Shown here in pieces: positions 16,655-25,818 of a stretch of 64,000 bases of DNA. Both the position numbers and the translations under genes were made by a program. The stretch's first letter is position 1. Every line of letters begins with the position of its first letter. Source of the DNA: Fodinisporobacter ferrooxydans (GTDB lineage: Bacteria; Bacillota; Bacilli; Tumebacillales; MYW30-H2); NCBI RefSeq assembly GCF_022818495.1, contig NZ_CP089291.1:682001-746000 (forward strand), written 5' to 3'. The notes under the pieces were generated by a model that had not been told where the DNA came from, did no database searches, and worked only from the letters and a program-made list of their open reading frames with translations.

Positions 16655-17173
16655 ATGGCATTCGAAATAATTGTTTGGAAAGAAGGATTTAATGTGGAGT
16701 ATTTGAAACAAGGAACTCCTGGTTTTCGGAAAGCAATTCTGGCGTTATTCGCCGGTGGATTTGCGACATTTGCAATTTTATACAGCACACAACCATTAAT
16801 GCCGATATTTTCAGAACAATTTCATATTTCCCCGGCAGTTGCCAGTTTATCTTGTCGGCTCCTTCAGTTCTGCGTGGATGGGAAAATTAGCCGATCGGCA
16901 CGGGCGTCATCAAGTTCTATGGCTAGCCATTGGCATCATGTTCGCAGGCGCATGTCTTTCTTTGCATCCTTACCTGTATGTCAAAATTCTTGTTATTTGT
17001 TTTTCTACTATTTGGGTTCCAGTGTAATCGGTACAGTGGGCGGATTGTTTTGGAGTCATTTTGGCTGGAACGGGATTGTTGGGATGATCGGCTGTTTTCT
17101 GATTCTCGCTTTCGGTTCATCCGTTTATTTATTTGCCGTATCCCGATCTGTGAAAAGTGCTCAAGCCTTTTAA
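16655..17173 (+). pseudogene. Decayed MFS transporter gene
   Basis: The N-terminal part (GFATFAILYSTQPLMPIFSE, then HISPAVASLS) is a good first helix of a YnfM/YgaY-like major facilitator. Sequence from the second half of such proteins then appears in another frame at 16839-17027 (LVGSFSSAWMGKLADRHGRH). The original frame resumes with FFYYLGSSVIGTVGGLFWSH. At least one internal deletion (about half the protein), further sequence loss and two frame changes are needed to explain this, so no functional transporter is made. The intact family has about 400 residues and 12 helices. Confidence 0.8.
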
Positions 17174-17381: not shown

Positions 17382-18488
17382 ATGCTTAAAGAAAATTTAA
17401 GAACGCTGCAAACAGCAATAAAAGAATTGGCAGATATAAATACTGCACTTGATGAATCCCTAATTGTTGCAATTACTGACCAAAAGGGTACGATCACTTT
17501 TGCAAACGAGAAATTTTGCAAAATATCCAAGTACTCGAAACATGAGCTTTTGGGTCAAAATCACCGAATTATCAATTCCGGATTGCATTCGAAAGATTTT
17601 TTCCGCAATATGTGGAGGACGATTGCCAACGGAAAGATTTGGCGCGGAGAAATTCGCAACAAGGCAAAAGACGGAACCTTTTATTGGATGGATACGACCA
17701 TTGTCCCATGTTTAAATGCAGAGGGAAAACCATATCAATATGTCTCCTTCCGTATCGATATAACGGAACGAAAAATGACCGAAGAATATTTGCGCAGATC
17801 GGATAAAATCGCCGCCGTCGGACAGATGGCATCCGGCATTGCTCACGAGATCCGCAACCCGCTTGCCGCCATTAAATGGACGATCAAGCTGATGCAAGCA
17901 GAGACAGGACAACAATGCCAATCCTTTGACATGATTTTATCGGAAATAAACCGGATTGACTCGATTGTCACAGAGTTGCTTTCCGTTGCGAAGCCGCAAA
18001 AAACCGTCATGTTTTCAATCATGAACATTCAGGCGATTCTTGAAACAACCGTATTGCTGATGAATATCCAAGCGGTAAAACATCGCGTCCATATCAATCT
18101 TTCCATTTCAGAGGACTTGCCGAATTTATATTGTGATGAAAATCAGCTCAAGCAAGTATTTATCAATTTAATAAAAAACGCCTTTGAAGCCATGCCAAAC
18201 GGCGGTGAATTGACGATTACAGCAGAGGCGGCCGGATCCGATTACATCCGTGTTCGCTTGATCGATCAAGGTTGCGGTATTCCCGCCGAGCAGATTGCAA
18301 AATTGGGCGAACCCTTTTACACGACAAAAGAAAAGGGTACAGGATTAGGGTTGATGATTTGCCAAAAAATTATCCAGGATCACCAAGGTACGATGCAGTT
18401 TAAAAGCGAGCTTGGAAAAGGAACGACAATCGATATCGATTTGCCGGTCTATCAGGAATCCTCTTGTTTAAACACACCGACCGCTTAG
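17382..18488 (+). CDS. Orphan soluble PAS-domain sensor histidine kinase
   Basis: 368 residues with no membrane segment. A PAS domain spans about 25-130 (LIVAITDQKGTITFANEKFC, then ISKYSKHELLGQNHRIINS, ending in VSFRIDITERK). The HisKA helix carries the phospho-acceptor His in GQMASGIAHEIRNPLAAIKW near residue 155. The HATPase_c domain has the N box NLIKNAFEAMPNGG, the G1 box DQGCGIPAEQ and the G2 box KGTGLGLMICQ. No response regulator gene is adjacent. In spore formers, orphan PAS kinases of this size often feed the Spo0F/Spo0A phosphorelay; that is inference. The gene follows GGGAGCGGG and ends in its own terminator. Confidence 0.93.
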   Translation: MLKENLRTLQTAIKELADINTALDESLIVAITDQKGTITFANEKFCKISKYSKHELLGQNHRIINSGLHSKDFFRNMWRTIANGKIWRGEIRNKAKDGTFYWMDTTIVPCLNAEGKPYQYVSFRIDITERKMTEEYLRRSDKIAAVGQMASGIAHEIRNPLAAIKWTIKLMQAETGQQCQSFDMILSEINRIDSIVTELLSVAKPQKTVMFSIMNIQAILETTVLLMNIQAVKHRVHINLSISEDLPNLYCDENQLKQVFINLIKNAFEAMPNGGELTITAEAAGSDYIRVRLIDQGCGIPAEQIAKLGEPFYTTKEKGTGLGLMICQKIIQDHQGTMQFKSELGKGTTIDIDLPVYQESSCLNTPTA

Positions 18489-19467: not shown

Positions 19468-20187
19468 TTAATGATAGGCCAGATACGCCTTCACAATGCT
19501 GTCGTCTTGTCGCAATTTTTCCGCACTGTCCTGCATGGTAATTTGACCGGTTTCCATAACATAACCTTTGTGCGCCAATTTTAACGCTGCCTTGGCATTT
19601 TGCTCAACCAATAAAATGGGGGTGCCTTCTGCATTGATCCGTTTAATAATTTTCATGATTTCTTGCACTATAATGGGAGCCAGACCCATCGACGGCTCAT
19701 CCAGCATGAGCAGCTTAGGACCGCTCATGATTGCCCGGCCGATGGCAACCATCTGTTGCTCGCCGCCGGAGAGTGTGCCTGCTTTCTGGCGTTCGCGTTC
19801 TTTTAAACGAGGAAACAGGTCAAATACGTGCTCCAATGTACGTTTGACGAACACATGGTCTTTCCGCTTAGTAAAACTCCCCAATTCGAGATTTTCCCGG
19901 ACTGTCAGTCCGCCGAAAATATGTCTGCCTTCCGGTACATGAACGATTCCACGCTCGACGATTTCATGTGGAGCCAATTTCCCGATATCCTCTCCCATAA
20001 AGCGAATGCTTCCATTCCTCGGACGGACAAGCCCGGAAATGGATTTTAACGTCGTGCTTTTGCCTGCACCATTGCTTCCCAAAAGTGCGACGATTTCTGC
20101 CTGTCCCACTTCCAGACTGATTGTTTTTAATGCCTGAATCTTGCCGTAATATGCGTCAACTTGGGAGAGCTCCAACACATGACTCAT
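19468..20187 (-). CDS. livF: Branched-chain amino acid ABC transporter ATP-binding protein LivF
   Basis: 239-residue ATPase. Walker A GSNGAGKST is near residue 36, the ABC signature LSGGEQQMVAIGRA near 138, and Walker B LLMLDEPSMGLAP near 158, followed by an EIMKIIKRIN helix and the switch His in LLVEQNAKAAL context as in LivF. It energises uptake of leucine, isoleucine, valine or related amino acids with LivG. Its ATG overlaps the livG stop by 4 bp. Last gene of livJHMGF. Confidence 0.95.
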   Translation of the reverse strand: MSHVLELSQVDAYYGKIQALKTISLEVGQAEIVALLGSNGAGKSTTLKSISGLVRPRNGSIRFMGEDIGKLAPHEIVERGIVHVPEGRHIFGGLTVRENLELGSFTKRKDHVFVKRTLEHVFDLFPRLKERERQKAGTLSGGEQQMVAIGRAIMSGPKLLMLDEPSMGLAPIIVQEIMKIIKRINAEGTPILLVEQNAKAALKLAHKGYVMETGQITMQDSAEKLRQDDSIVKAYLAYH

Positions 20188-20957
20188 ATCGCTTCATCCT
20201 CGCTTCCCAGGTAAGCTTCGATCACTTTTGGGTTGTTCATGACTTCAGACGGTGTTCCTGCGGCGATTTTTTGACCATAATTCAATACGACGATATGATC
20301 GGATACCTGGTTTACCAATCCCATGTCATGTTCGATCAATAAAACGGAAATATTCAAATCCCTTTGTATCTTTCGGATCAAACGGATCAAATCCTGTTTT
20401 TCACTCATATTCAGTCCGGCTGCCGGCTCGTCGAGCAGCAATAATTTCGGACGGGCCGCCAGAGCTCTGGCAATCTCCACATAGCGTTGAATCCCATAGG
20501 GAAGGTTTTTTGCGGTACGCCCTGCATAGGAGGAGATTCCCACAAACTCCATGCATTCATAAGCGACATCCACAATGGTCTGCTCTTCCCGTTTTTGTGC
20601 CGGCGTATGGAATAACGCACCGATGATTCCCTGCTTTGTTTTGCTGTGCATACCGCTCATGACATTTTCCAAAACGTTCAAGGAAGGAAATAAACGCAAG
20701 TTTTGAAACGTGCGGGCCATGCCCATCTGTGTAATCATACTTGGTTTTTTTCCAAGGATACTTGTACCGTCAAATACGATATCGCCTTTTGTCGGTTTAT
20801 AAAAGCCGGTAATCATGTTAAACACGGATGTTTTTCCAGCGCCATTCGGACCAATGACACTCATGATCGTTTCTCTGGGAATTTCAAAACTCAAATCGTT
20901 GACGGCGGTAAGTCCCCCAAATTGCAATGTTAATTGTTTGATCTTAACGAGTGACAT
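20184..20957 (-). CDS. livG: Branched-chain amino acid ABC transporter ATP-binding protein LivG
   Basis: 257-residue ATPase partner of LivF. Walker A GPNGAGKTSVFN lies near residue 37. The signature loop has the LivG form LPYGIQRYVEIARALA, and Walker B LLLLDEPAAGLN is near 170. LLIEHDMGLVNQVSDHIVVL provides the switch His, and the C-terminal GTPSEVMNNPKVIEAYLG is typical of LivG. It lies 11 bp after livM and overlaps livF. Confidence 0.95.
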   Translation of the reverse strand: MSLVKIKQLTLQFGGLTAVNDLSFEIPRETIMSVIGPNGAGKTSVFNMITGFYKPTKGDIVFDGTSILGKKPSMITQMGMARTFQNLRLFPSLNVLENVMSGMHSKTKQGIIGALFHTPAQKREEQTIVDVAYECMEFVGISSYAGRTAKNLPYGIQRYVEIARALAARPKLLLLDEPAAGLNMSEKQDLIRLIRKIQRDLNISVLLIEHDMGLVNQVSDHIVVLNYGQKIAAGTPSEVMNNPKVIEAYLGSEDEAI

Positions 20958-21958: not shown

Positions 21959-22852
21959 CTACATCCTCTCCGTAGTTTTTTCGCCTAATAAACCTGTTGG
22001 TTTCAAAACCAATATCAAAATCAATATGGCAAACGTGAACACATCTCTCCATTCGCTACCGAGATAAATGGTCCCGAGCGATTCCAGAATGCCAAGCGCC
22101 AAACCTCCAACCATCGCTCCGGGGATACTGCCAATACCGCCAATCACTGCGGCAGTAAATGCTTTTAACCCGACGATAAATCCCATCATGAAATTGATTT
22201 GTCCATAATAGAGTCCTGACATCATGCCTGCAGCAGCAGCCAAAGCAGAACCAATAAAAAAGGTCATGCTGATAATGCGGTTAACCGGAATGCCCATCAG
22301 GGAAGTTGCCGTCTGGTCAATGGCGATCGCCCGCATTGCTTTCCCGTACAACGTCTTGTGCACAAACGTTTGTAAGCCGATCATTAAAACAAGAGATATG
22401 AGAATAATACCAATTTGTGCAAACGTAATCGTCGCATTGCCGATATGAAACCCGGTTGTCGGCAGTTGATACGGGTAGACTTTAAAACTTGGACCATACG
22501 ACAGCATCGTGCCGTTTTCCAGAACAAGAGATACGCCGACAGCCGTGATCAGAATGGTAAGACGAGATGCTTTCAGCAACGGTCGGTATGCAATCCGCTC
22601 TACACCCATCCCCAGCAATCCGACCACAAGCATCGAAGCCAGAAACGCCACTGCTACGCCAAGAATTCCCGGTTGCCCGGAAAACAGAGACAAAACAGTA
22701 AATCCTACGAACGAACCTACCATATATAAATCGCCATGTGCAAAGTTCAATAATTGAATAATCCCGTACACCATCGAATAACCAAGTGCAATCAAACTGT
22801 AAAAGGCACCAACGACAAGCGCGTTCGTCAATTGCTGGATAAACATATCCAT
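21959..22852 (-). CDS. livH: Branched-chain amino acid ABC transporter permease LivH
   Basis: 297-residue permease with about eight helices. The diagnostic N-terminal block is QLTNALVVGAFYSLIALGYS, then YGIIQLLNFAHGDLYMVGSF. The cytoplasmic coupling loop is RAIAIDQTATSLMGIPVNRI near residue 190, and AVIGGIGSIPGAMVGGLALG is near 240. It is separated from livJ by a hairpin that probably lowers permease expression relative to the binding protein. Confidence 0.95.
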   Translation of the reverse strand: MDMFIQQLTNALVVGAFYSLIALGYSMVYGIIQLLNFAHGDLYMVGSFVGFTVLSLFSGQPGILGVAVAFLASMLVVGLLGMGVERIAYRPLLKASRLTILITAVGVSLVLENGTMLSYGPSFKVYPYQLPTTGFHIGNATITFAQIGIILISLVLMIGLQTFVHKTLYGKAMRAIAIDQTATSLMGIPVNRIISMTFFIGSALAAAAGMMSGLYYGQINFMMGFIVGLKAFTAAVIGGIGSIPGAMVGGLALGILESLGTIYLGSEWRDVFTFAILILILVLKPTGLLGEKTTERM

Positions 22853-22939: not shown

Positions 22940-24112
22940 TTATTGTTGCGGCAATGTAAACTTCCCGTTTTTCACGAGAAGAACGATAAAGTTGGATTTC
23001 TTTAATGTACCGTCCTTTTTAAAGGACACATCTCCGGCGAACGTCTTGAAATTATTCGTGTCTTGCAGCGCTTTGATAATTGCATTTTTATCGGTCGATC
23101 CGGCACGCTTGATCGCATCCGCCAATAAGCGCATGCCATCATACGAAAGTGCGGAATAAGGGCCCGGATCTTGATGGAATTTCGCTTTGTAGTCATTGAT
23201 AAACTTCTTGGCATCCGGCAAGAATTCGGCTGTCGGAGGTGTCGTCACAAATGTGCCTTCCGCCGCTTGTTTTCCTGCAATATCGATCAAAGTCGGGTCG
23301 TTGGCGCCGTCGCCGACTCCAATTGCACCCGGAACGCCCAATTGCTTGAATTGCTTAATCAACAATCCGCCTTGCGCATAGTAGGCAGTCCAATAGGTAG
23401 CATCCGGCTTTAGGCCTTTTAACTTGGTCAAAAGTGTTGTGAAGTCCTTCTCATCCGGGTTCACCGCTTCAAAGTCGACTACTTTTGCACCTTTGCTTTC
23501 TACCGCTTTCTTCGTTTGGTCTGCCAAATCTTTTGCATACGCAGAATTGTCGTCAATAATTGCAATGCGTTTTCCGTGCAATTTATCTACCATATAATCC
23601 GCTGCGACTTCTCCTTGATGAACAGTAGTCCCGTTAATCAGGAAAATGTCATTATAGCCTTGTGCGGGAATCTTTGCAGAGTTCGCTGCCGTTACCACCA
23701 TTGGCAGTCCGGCATTGTGATAGACGCCGGATGCCGGCAACGTAGCGCCGGAAGCATATCCGCCGACGACGGCAACGACACCTTCGGATACGAGCTTGTT
23801 CGCTGCTGCTGTTGCCGTTTGCGGATCACTGGCATCATCAGCAAACGTCAATTTGATCTTTTTGCCGTTGATTCCGCCATTTGCATTGATTTCATCTGTA
23901 GCCAACTGAATGGCATTGTTCATATCTTGTCCCATTTTCGCAGTGGAACCGGTCGTCGGCGACTGAACACCGATCAGGATATCCCCGCTTTTATTGCCGC
24001 CACTCCCGGCAGTAGAACCGGAACTCCCAGCAGAACCATTGCTGCATGCTGTAAGCGTTAACATAGATGCGATTGATAATGCTACACCTGCTTTTTTCCA
24101 ATTTTTATTCAT
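22940..24112 (-). CDS. livJ: Branched-chain amino acid ABC transporter substrate-binding lipoprotein
   Basis: 390 residues. The signal peptide ends in the lipobox LTLTACSNG, with the lipidated Cys near residue 23, then a Gly/Ser-rich linker (GSAGSSGSTAGSGGNKSG). The mature part is a type I periplasmic-binding fold: ILIGVQSPTTGSTAKMGQDM, then NGGINGKKIKLTFADDASDP, and VVAVVGGYASGATLPAS, the usual Leu/Ile/Val-binding signature. It delivers ligand to LivHM at the outer membrane face. First gene of the liv operon, with a perfect cre-like sequence near its 5' end. Confidence 0.95.
   Translation of the reverse strand: MNKNWKKAGVALSIASMLTLTACSNGSAGSSGSTAGSGGNKSGDILIGVQSPTTGSTAKMGQDMNNAIQLATDEINANGGINGKKIKLTFADDASDPQTATAAANKLVSEGVVAVVGGYASGATLPASGVYHNAGLPMVVTAANSAKIPAQGYNDIFLINGTTVHQGEVAADYMVDKLHGKRIAIIDDNSAYAKDLADQTKKAVESKGAKVVDFEAVNPDEKDFTTLLTKLKGLKPDATYWTAYYAQGGLLIKQFKQLGVPGAIGVGDGANDPTLIDIAGKQAAEGTFVTTPPTAEFLPDAKKFINDYKAKFHQDPGPYSALSYDGMRLLADAIKRAGSTDKNAIIKALQDTNNFKTFAGDVSFKKDGTLKKSNFIVLLVKNGKFTLPQQ
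24050..24063 (+). promoter_or_regulatory. cre-like catabolite-response element inside the livJ 5' coding region
   Basis: TGTAAGCGTTAACA matches the CcpA consensus TGWAANCGNTNWCA at every defined position. It lies 50-63 bp inside livJ, a typical roadblock location. CcpA binding is inference; HPr and HPr kinase genes occur elsewhere in the window. Confidence 0.5.
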
Positions 24113-24241: not shown

Positions 24242-24277
24242 ATGTTTAAAATTAAACACAGAATATAAAATTGTCTA
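24242..24277 (-). promoter_or_regulatory. Predicted sigma-A promoter of the liv operon
   Basis: On the minus strand TAGACA (24277-24272) and TAATTT (24254-24249) are spaced 17 bp apart, in an AT-rich stretch. Transcription would start near 24242 and leave an untranslated leader of about 130 nt that contains the GATTG repeats. No sigma-54 (-24/-12) promoter was found in the intergenic region. Confidence 0.45.
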
Positions 24278-24480
24278 ATTTGTGGACATCTTCAACGCAA
24301 TTTTACACTAAAATACCTGAATTCAGCAATATATAAAATTTCTTTTACGAGCAATTCTTACATTGCAGACAGATTATTCAAATCTTGTAGTTTACACGAG
24401 CATTCGTACTCTCGTAATCGTAAAAAGTATAAAAGCGATCATGATTGACACTTACGTTTCCGGAAATAGGGGTGAACATT

Positions 24481-25818
24481 TTGCACCAATATGAAAAGGC
24501 TTTCCTGAATGGCATATTGGATTTTGTGAATGATGCGGTTACATGCGTGAACCGTGAAGGAGTAGTCATATTTTGGAATCGGGCGGCAGAACACATGTAT
24601 GGGATTCCAAAGGAACAGATTATCGGCAAACGAATCGGGGAGTTCTTTCAAAAAGGATCCCTCATGCTCTATCAAGTAATGGAGACCGGATGCCCAGTGT
24701 TTCAAGTCTATCATACACCGCAGCCGGATACACATGTCTTGATCAATGCCACACCCATTTTTAATGATTCCTCCGAATTGATCGGAGCGATTTCCGTCGA
24801 GCAAAATATCACTTCGACAGTAAAACTGAGTGAGGATCTGTTTCAATCTCCCGGCAAGCAAAATCCAAAGATTTCGATACCATTTATTGTGCAACGAAGT
24901 GCACAGATGAAACAGACAGTGGATTATTTGACACAAACGGCAAAACTGAATGTTCCAATCCTTTTCTTAGGTGAGACTGGCGTAGGAAAACAAGCACTTG
25001 CCTATTTCCTGCATTCATTAGGTTCCGCTGGAGATCCCTTTCTGACACTCAATTGCGAAGCGCTCCCGCCAGGACTGCTGGATGCCGAGTTATTTGGATA
25101 TCAGGAAGATTTTTTAAACGTCCATCGACCGGATATGCAGTCTGGTGAACGACAAGGAAAGCTTGACCACGCCCAAAATGGAATCCTTTATATCAAAAAT
25201 ATTCATGCCATGCCACTGCCCACTCAAGTGCGTTTGGCAAACGCCATTCGCGATCGCCGGTTTTTCCGTGTGGGCGGAATGAAACCGATATCATTCACAT
25301 GCAGGATTCTTGCATCTTCTCATCCAAATCTGATGAATCATATAAAGGATGACACGTTTTCGAAAGAACTGTATTATACATTTCATCTTGTTTCCATTCC
25401 GGCTTTAAAGGACCGAATCGAAGATATCCCGGAACTCGGCATTCATTTTCTGGAGGATCTGTCTGTCAAGCTTGGCAAACCGATCCCCCGGCTTTCCACA
25501 AATGTGATTGCGGCACTTGCCACATATGAATGGCCTGGCAATCTTCACGAATTTAAAAATGTCATGGAACGATTGATGCTTCAAGCAAAAGAGACAGATA
25601 TCACTCTGGAACATTTACCTGAATCGTTACGTTTGATAACTTTATCTGAATTTTTCGAAGAATCAAAACAACTAACGGATCTATCGGAAGAAATGGAACG
25701 CAAAATGATCGGGGAGGCATTAAAACGCACCAACGGAAATAAAGCAAATGCTGCCAGACTTCTGGGAATATCGCGAGGCTCTCTATATTATAAAATGAAA
25801 CTATACAATATGAGTTGA
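24481..25818 (+). CDS. PAS / AAA+ / Fis-type regulator with degenerate ATPase motifs
   Basis: 445 residues from a TTG start at 24481, chosen because AGGGGTG lies 6 bp upstream; an earlier TTG at 24445 is less well placed. An N-terminal PAS domain (about 5-115: ILDFVNDAVTCVNREGVVIF) precedes an AAA+ module with Walker A GETGVGKQALAYFLH and a conserved ELFGYQE segment. However, GAFTGA is replaced by a sequence around DFLNVHRPD, and the Walker B segment reads GILYIKNIH instead of the usual acidic LFLDEI. The C-terminus is a Fis-type helix-turn-helix (NKANAARLLGISRGSLYYKM). It is divergent from liv and likely a local regulator acting without sigma-54; that is inference. Confidence 0.85.
   Translation: MHQYEKAFLNGILDFVNDAVTCVNREGVVIFWNRAAEHMYGIPKEQIIGKRIGEFFQKGSLMLYQVMETGCPVFQVYHTPQPDTHVLINATPIFNDSSELIGAISVEQNITSTVKLSEDLFQSPGKQNPKISIPFIVQRSAQMKQTVDYLTQTAKLNVPILFLGETGVGKQALAYFLHSLGSAGDPFLTLNCEALPPGLLDAELFGYQEDFLNVHRPDMQSGERQGKLDHAQNGILYIKNIHAMPLPTQVRLANAIRDRRFFRVGGMKPISFTCRILASSHPNLMNHIKDDTFSKELYYTFHLVSIPALKDRIEDIPELGIHFLEDLSVKLGKPIPRLSTNVIAALATYEWPGNLHEFKNVMERLMLQAKETDITLEHLPESLRLITLSEFFEESKQLTDLSEEMERKMIGEALKRTNGNKANAARLLGISRGSLYYKMKLYNMS

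Follow-up and report, generated by a model that had tools for sequence, protein, structure and literature searches.

A PrdR-like enhancer-binding protein without motor residues as a probable sigma-54-independent repressor of a liv operon in Fodinisporobacter ferrooxydans

Related regulators

TyrR of Escherichia coli, an amino-acid-responsive PAS-AAA+-HTH protein without a GAFTGA loop, works on sigma-70 promoters and is for the most part a repressor; its TYR boxes read TGTAAA-N6-TTTACA. Among other bacterial enhancer-binding proteins (bEBPs, EBPs), NtrC of Rhodobacter capsulatus and Caulobacter lacks the GAFTGA loop and regulates sigma-70 promoters, the Caulobacter protein both activating and repressing, and VpsR, an EBP-like protein likewise without GAFTGA, acts at sigma-70 promoters (PMC10274813). 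The PrdR and PrdR-like, Put-linked regulators of Bacillota are sigma-54 activators, and the UAS of PrdR has been described as TGT-N10-12-ACA (PMC6615313).

The regulator analyzed here is encoded in a 64,000-nucleotide stretch of the F. ferrooxydans genome (the window) and is nearest in sequence to PrdR (NCBIfam PrdR, E 5e-101), with which and with PrdR-like proteins it shares the PAS-AAA+-Fis order, proline-linked neighbours and the type of UAS. Its score of 338.7 bits is far below the PrdR equivalog cut-off of 795, and its 159.8 bits against TyrR are below the cut-off of 576. The PrdR-like relatives have GAFTGA, Walker B, arginine fingers, sensor II and a -24/-12 promoter at the target, whereas the clade of the regulator, termed here the full-loss clade, has none of these. 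TyrR, the TYR boxes of which resemble the candidate operators found here, keeps Walker B (LLDEIG), the arginine fingers (FREDLYYR) and sensor II (GNVRQL), unlike the regulator; in the tree it stands outside the full-loss clade, although the AU test does not reject a grouping of the two (p 0.096). The R. capsulatus and Caulobacter NtrC proteins are response regulators with a receiver domain from a different lineage, and neither a proline-linked ancestor nor a concerted promoter replacement is described for them in the literature found. VpsR, detectable in a PDB search with the regulator (7v2b), has a different family and sensor domain and is an activator. In its presumed mode of action the regulator is similar to TyrR, the GAFTGA-less NtrC proteins and VpsR, but within the PrdR-like family it forms a branch of its own. 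A literature search, beyond the reach of which lay most subscription journals, found no paper describing the full-loss clade.

The regulator and its clade

The regulator gene has the following features.

24468..24474, plus strand: likely ribosome-binding site of the regulator, AGGGGTG, from the sequence
24481..25818, plus strand: ORF of the PAS-AAA+-Fis regulator, TTG start, 445 residues; belongs to an EBP clade that lacks the residues for ATPase activity and sigma-54 contact
24529..24813, plus strand: PAS domain, residues 17-111, from Pfam and alignments
24970..24990, plus strand: Walker A, GETGVGK, kept; the segment reads GETGVGKQ from 24970
25099..25161, plus strand: L1 loop with GAFTGA replaced (YQEDFLNVHRPDMQSGERQGK), from the alignment
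25180..25206, plus strand: former Walker B, GILYIKNIH, D-E changed to K-N, from the alignment; GTLFLDEIG in intact relatives
25357..25416, plus strand: former arginine-finger segment, arginines gone and two residues deleted, from the alignment
25531..25554, plus strand: former sensor II, WPGNLHEF, arginine gone, from the alignment; WPGNIRQL in intact relatives
25687..25803, plus strand: Fis-type HTH (HTH_8), kept, from Pfam

A longer start, TTG at 24445, is possible. Pfam placed PAS_9 at residues 17-111, Sigma54_activat at 136-306, AAA_lid_14 at 311-384 and HTH_8 at 403-441; the AAA+ fold with its lid is present (PF00158, E 1.2e-35; PF25601, E 3.6e-20), and the PAS domain, with the motif YHxPxPxxHVxIN, is the best-conserved part besides the HTH in the alignments. 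The domain order of an EBP, a good Walker A and a Fis helix, described in an earlier note made from this sequence alone, were borne out by Pfam and the alignments. The same note had reported the loss of the GAFTGA loop and of the Walker B acidic pair; alignment with intact relatives confirmed both losses, which are common to the orthologues, but the list was incomplete, the arginine fingers and the sensor II arginine being gone as well. The L1/GAFTGA segment reads ELFGYQEDFLNVHRPDMQSGERQGK versus ELFGYQ(G/S)GAFTGADRKGKPGK in intact relatives, and the arginine-finger segment reads FSKELYYTFHLVS--IPAL versus FREDLYYRLNVVSLEIPPL.

Among the features of a bEBP, the AAA+ fold with lid and Walker A are found in the regulator; GAFTGA, the Walker B acidic pair, the arginine fingers, the sensor II arginine and a -24/-12 element at the target are absent. 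Judged by its sequence, the regulator lacks the defining features of a sigma-54 activator, and annotation as such is not warranted. The name sigma-54-dependent regulator, taken from the best-scoring family models, is wrong for the full-loss clade. Nucleotide binding at the kept Walker A, in a structural or regulatory role, may persist.

The genome containing the window is the sole member of its family in the genome set. An orthologue with the same losses was found in four of the 13 other genomes of the order (46-54% identity), and in all three of the order genomes with a complete neighbourhood it is transcribed divergently from livK. Searches of the whole class (398 genomes) and of single families identified 22 full-loss proteins across several families of Bacilli; partial-loss relatives (L057, L058 and L026, a paralogue from the window genome itself without GAFTGA but with Walker B) and further degenerate members (L136, L142 and L143) were also collected. 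In a phylum sample of 398 genomes, L137-L139, the strong matches examined from beyond the class, were all intact, and a scan of genome contigs yielded no useful relative.

In a tree built from an alignment stripped of every catalytic-motif column, the full-loss proteins group as a single clade (support 100/99; 99/97 together with the partial-loss proteins), although the long branches warrant caution. A two-residue deletion common to the full-loss proteins agrees with the tree. The clade is nested among PrdR-like sigma-54 activators, the intact family members of which score best against PrdR, and this nesting demonstrates common descent with the Put/PrdR-like EBPs.

The dN/dS ratio of the AAA domain in close full-loss pairs is 0.04-0.28, demonstrating that this domain is under purifying selection and is maintained rather than decaying; the ratios are well below one in all domains. 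The long branches and the many lost motifs could suggest a decaying gene without function, but open frames in more than 20 genomes, the dN/dS ratios and the conservation of position and operators refute decay for the clade as a whole, and we give it practically no credence. A sequencing error restoring the motifs, which the earlier note had named as a possible objection, does not apply: the losses are common to four orthologues and further clade members and are therefore due neither to chance nor to sequencing error, and local decay was rejected by the orthologues together with the dN/dS ratios. In the window genome, a single contig of 4.86 Mb, one sigma-54 gene was found alongside 13 further loci whose EBP central domains score high; the loss is thus specific to the lineage of the regulator. 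The sigma-54 gene is also kept in those clade genomes that were checked, and motif loss following sigma-54 loss was rejected.

A put-linked paralogue in the window genome (L044:9505-11277; G000:C1:4824897-4826261) has lost GAFTGA and kept Walker B, the arginine finger and sensor II, and the adjacent putB has no -24/-12 element. It possibly represents an intermediate stage; recent decay of the intact copy of the order was rejected (AU p 0.0005). A put-linked subgroup, L112-L117, is eroded further, with ELFG changed to ALFG or AIFG and Walker B reading LLQD.

Proline genes and target promoters

The livKHMGF cluster (24112-19468, minus strand) is divergent from the regulator.

22940..24112, minus strand: livK-type amino-acid-binding protein, the presumed target, from the ORF and structural relatives
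21959..22852, minus strand: livH-type permease, from the ORF; gene order kept in L040, L041 and L144
20969..21955, minus strand: livM-type permease, from the ORF and conserved order
20184..20957, minus strand: livG-type ATPase, from the ORF and conserved order
19468..20187, minus strand: livF-type ATPase, from the ORF and conserved order

Intact relatives adjoin putB (proline dehydrogenase) in 19 of 19 loci of the first promoter-test set, usually divergently, and most full-loss members outside the order adjoin putB or putC. Two genomes (G003 and G004) carry putB (with putC), an intact regulator, liv genes and a full-loss regulator in one cluster; in G083, from another family, the full-loss regulator faces livKHMGF, putB and putC, lined up in that order on a single strand (L144:1712-10460). 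The nearest solved relative of LivK belongs to the 3ip5 group (Atu2422) of amino-acid-binding proteins, which binds proline and GABA among others. Since liv and put genes are clustered in these three genomes and LivK is nearest to the 3ip5 group, the substrate of the liv system is probably proline or an amino acid related to it.

The earlier note had held that an intact homologue at this locus would speak against its reading. G003 and G004 do have one, at the opposite end of the liv cluster, where it faces putB with a -24/-12 element, but the copy facing livK is degenerate.

Two further ORFs were seen in this part of the window. A short ORF at 16655-17173 has a start resembling an MFS transporter, changes character halfway and resembles a disrupted gene. 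A PAS-containing sensor histidine kinase without an adjoining response regulator is encoded at 17382-18488, next to the nadE-liv cluster.

The region upstream of the target gene was scanned with a -24/-12 matrix in a first set of loci and in a fresh, out-of-sample set. In the first set the element precedes putB at 19 of 19 intact loci, with scores of at least 13.3 and at 52-107 bp before the gene, and was found at none of the 11 full-loss and neither of the two partial loci; a secondary putC, that of L085, scored 9.9. In the fresh set it was found at seven of seven intact loci (scores 14.9-20.6; one element lies 197 bp before the gene) and at none of nine full-loss loci, where the maximum score was 8.6. 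The -24/-12 promoter, proposed as a check in the earlier note, is absent before livK, the best score being -0.7 compared to at least 13.3 in intact relatives. Both sets together give 26 of 26 intact relatives versus none of 20 full-loss loci; because the full-loss clade has one origin, the match between promoter and regulator represents one inherited event plus descent, and these counts are not independent. What they do show is an association between the type of promoter and the type of regulator that has persisted since the clade arose.

Since the genome has sigma-54 and, besides the regulator, 13 EBPs whose central domains score high, the regulator might still act at a sigma-54 promoter, holding or blocking the holoenzyme. 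As a -24/-12 element precedes none of the full-loss targets scanned, this is largely refuted and appears very improbable.

Candidate operators and the proposed mode of regulation

The following elements were identified between the regulator and livK.

24324..24329, minus strand: predicted sigma-A -35 box, TTGCTG, spacer 18
24300..24305, minus strand: predicted sigma-A -10 box of the liv operon, TAAAAT, ending 11 nt before operator 1
24272..24288, minus strand: candidate operator 1, TGTCCACAAATTAGACA, from half-site PWM and pattern search
24243..24258, minus strand: candidate operator 2, TGTTTAATTTTAAACA, from half-site PWM and pattern search

With a half-site PWM (TGTNYA) for which only intact loci served as the training set, inverted pairs with a 4-5 bp gap were detected at degenerate loci (gap 5, z 10.9). 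A palindrome model from the same training set failed as a whole at degenerate loci, because the arrangement of the half-sites differs there; the half-sites by themselves do transfer. The candidate operators have the form TGTTYA-N4/5-TRAACA, that is, TGT-N10/11-ACA, in agreement with the PrdR-type UAS pattern. The exact pattern has 10 matches in 4.86 Mb, two of which, 29 bp apart, precede livK. At the L112-L117 loci the operators are weaker at all six (p about 0.06-0.09).

In the window, both candidate operators separate livK from the predicted sigma-A promoter. An alignment of the livK upstream regions from four genomes shows a conserved TTGYNN-N17/18-TANAAT, followed after 11 nt by operator 1 and about 30 bp further by operator 2; the position of the TAAAAT -10 box is conserved in the four genomes, its single-site score being below the 95th percentile of shuffled sequence. 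In most loci the candidate operators are 7-11 and 36-42 nt after a sigma-A-like promoter, many single promoter predictions not exceeding shuffled sequence. In a joint test of promoter-operator offsets many offsets scored high and no single one was cleanly separated, because real operators lift all of them. Most put loci have the candidate operator 27-60 bp ahead of the start codon, after a similar promoter and just before the ribosome-binding site, so that no promoter would fit between it and the gene; in L142, TATAAT is followed by TGTTTAAATTTCAACA immediately before the ribosome-binding site.

An operator located after the promoter and directly before the ribosome-binding site suits a repressor and not an activator, and it is this position, the one feature that does so, that points to repression at a sigma-A promoter. 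A sigma-54-independent activator recruiting RNA polymerase to the sigma-A promoter, like R. capsulatus NtrC or VpsR, seems unlikely: it would agree with the weak predicted -35 boxes (TTGYNN), as at activated promoters, and with the known GAFTGA-less bEBPs that activate sigma-70 promoters (PMC10274813), but an activator site is expected at -35 or upstream, and the operators are downstream of the predicted -10 box and, in the majority of put loci, separate any possible promoter from the ribosome-binding site. We also doubt strongly that the regulator mainly controls its own gene or acts as a dominant-negative partner of an intact Put activator in mixed oligomers. An intact paralogue does coexist with it in G001, G003, G004 and G005, and both use a common half-site; however, in most put-linked full-loss genomes no intact Put-type paralogue was found among the matches of the same searches, and the operators adjoin the target gene rather than the regulator gene.

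We therefore consider it probable that this paralogue of PrdR/Put-type sigma-54 activators has no sigma-54 activation and now serves as a sigma-54-independent, amino-acid-responsive repressor of livKHMGF at a sigma-A promoter. The PAS domain would sense an amino acid, most likely, from the gene neighbours, proline or a related compound. A dimer or higher oligomer, perhaps nucleotide-bound without hydrolysis, would occupy both candidate operators in the early transcribed region, just downstream of the sigma-A promoter, and block transcription of livKHMGF; ligand binding to the PAS domain would release or reshape the regulator, and uptake would thereby be induced by its own substrate.

The earlier note had proposed a repurposed EBP that has no sigma-54 activation and serves the divergent liv genes as a DNA-binding ligand sensor. 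This is supported by the lineage-wide losses, the livK-facing position kept in three related genomes and the two family-specific candidate operators between both genes; the earlier reading lacked the PrdR-like ancestor from proline catabolism, the loss of -24/-12 elements at the targets and the operator position that points to repression at a sigma-A promoter.

With less assurance, we lean towards a single ancestral event that turned a sigma-54 activator into a sigma-A repressor, with the whole AAA+ motor inactivated, the -24/-12 promoter replaced and the enhancer half-sites re-used as operators; the clade would then have spread over several families of Bacilli, duplicated and moved onto a liv-type uptake operon for proline or another amino acid. 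Both ends of this rewiring are still alive: an intact activator with a sigma-54 promoter, a partly eroded regulator, and a fully eroded one with a different promoter are found at the same proline genes, sometimes in one genome, and the order of steps in a switch from activator to repressor is therefore testable.

A wider regulon in the window genome was rejected, as the remaining operator matches resemble chance or sites of other repressors. Two more pattern matches are located between a TetR-type regulator and an aldo-keto reductase (L096/L097; G000:C1:1469865-1469998) and are probably the TetR-type repressor's own sites.
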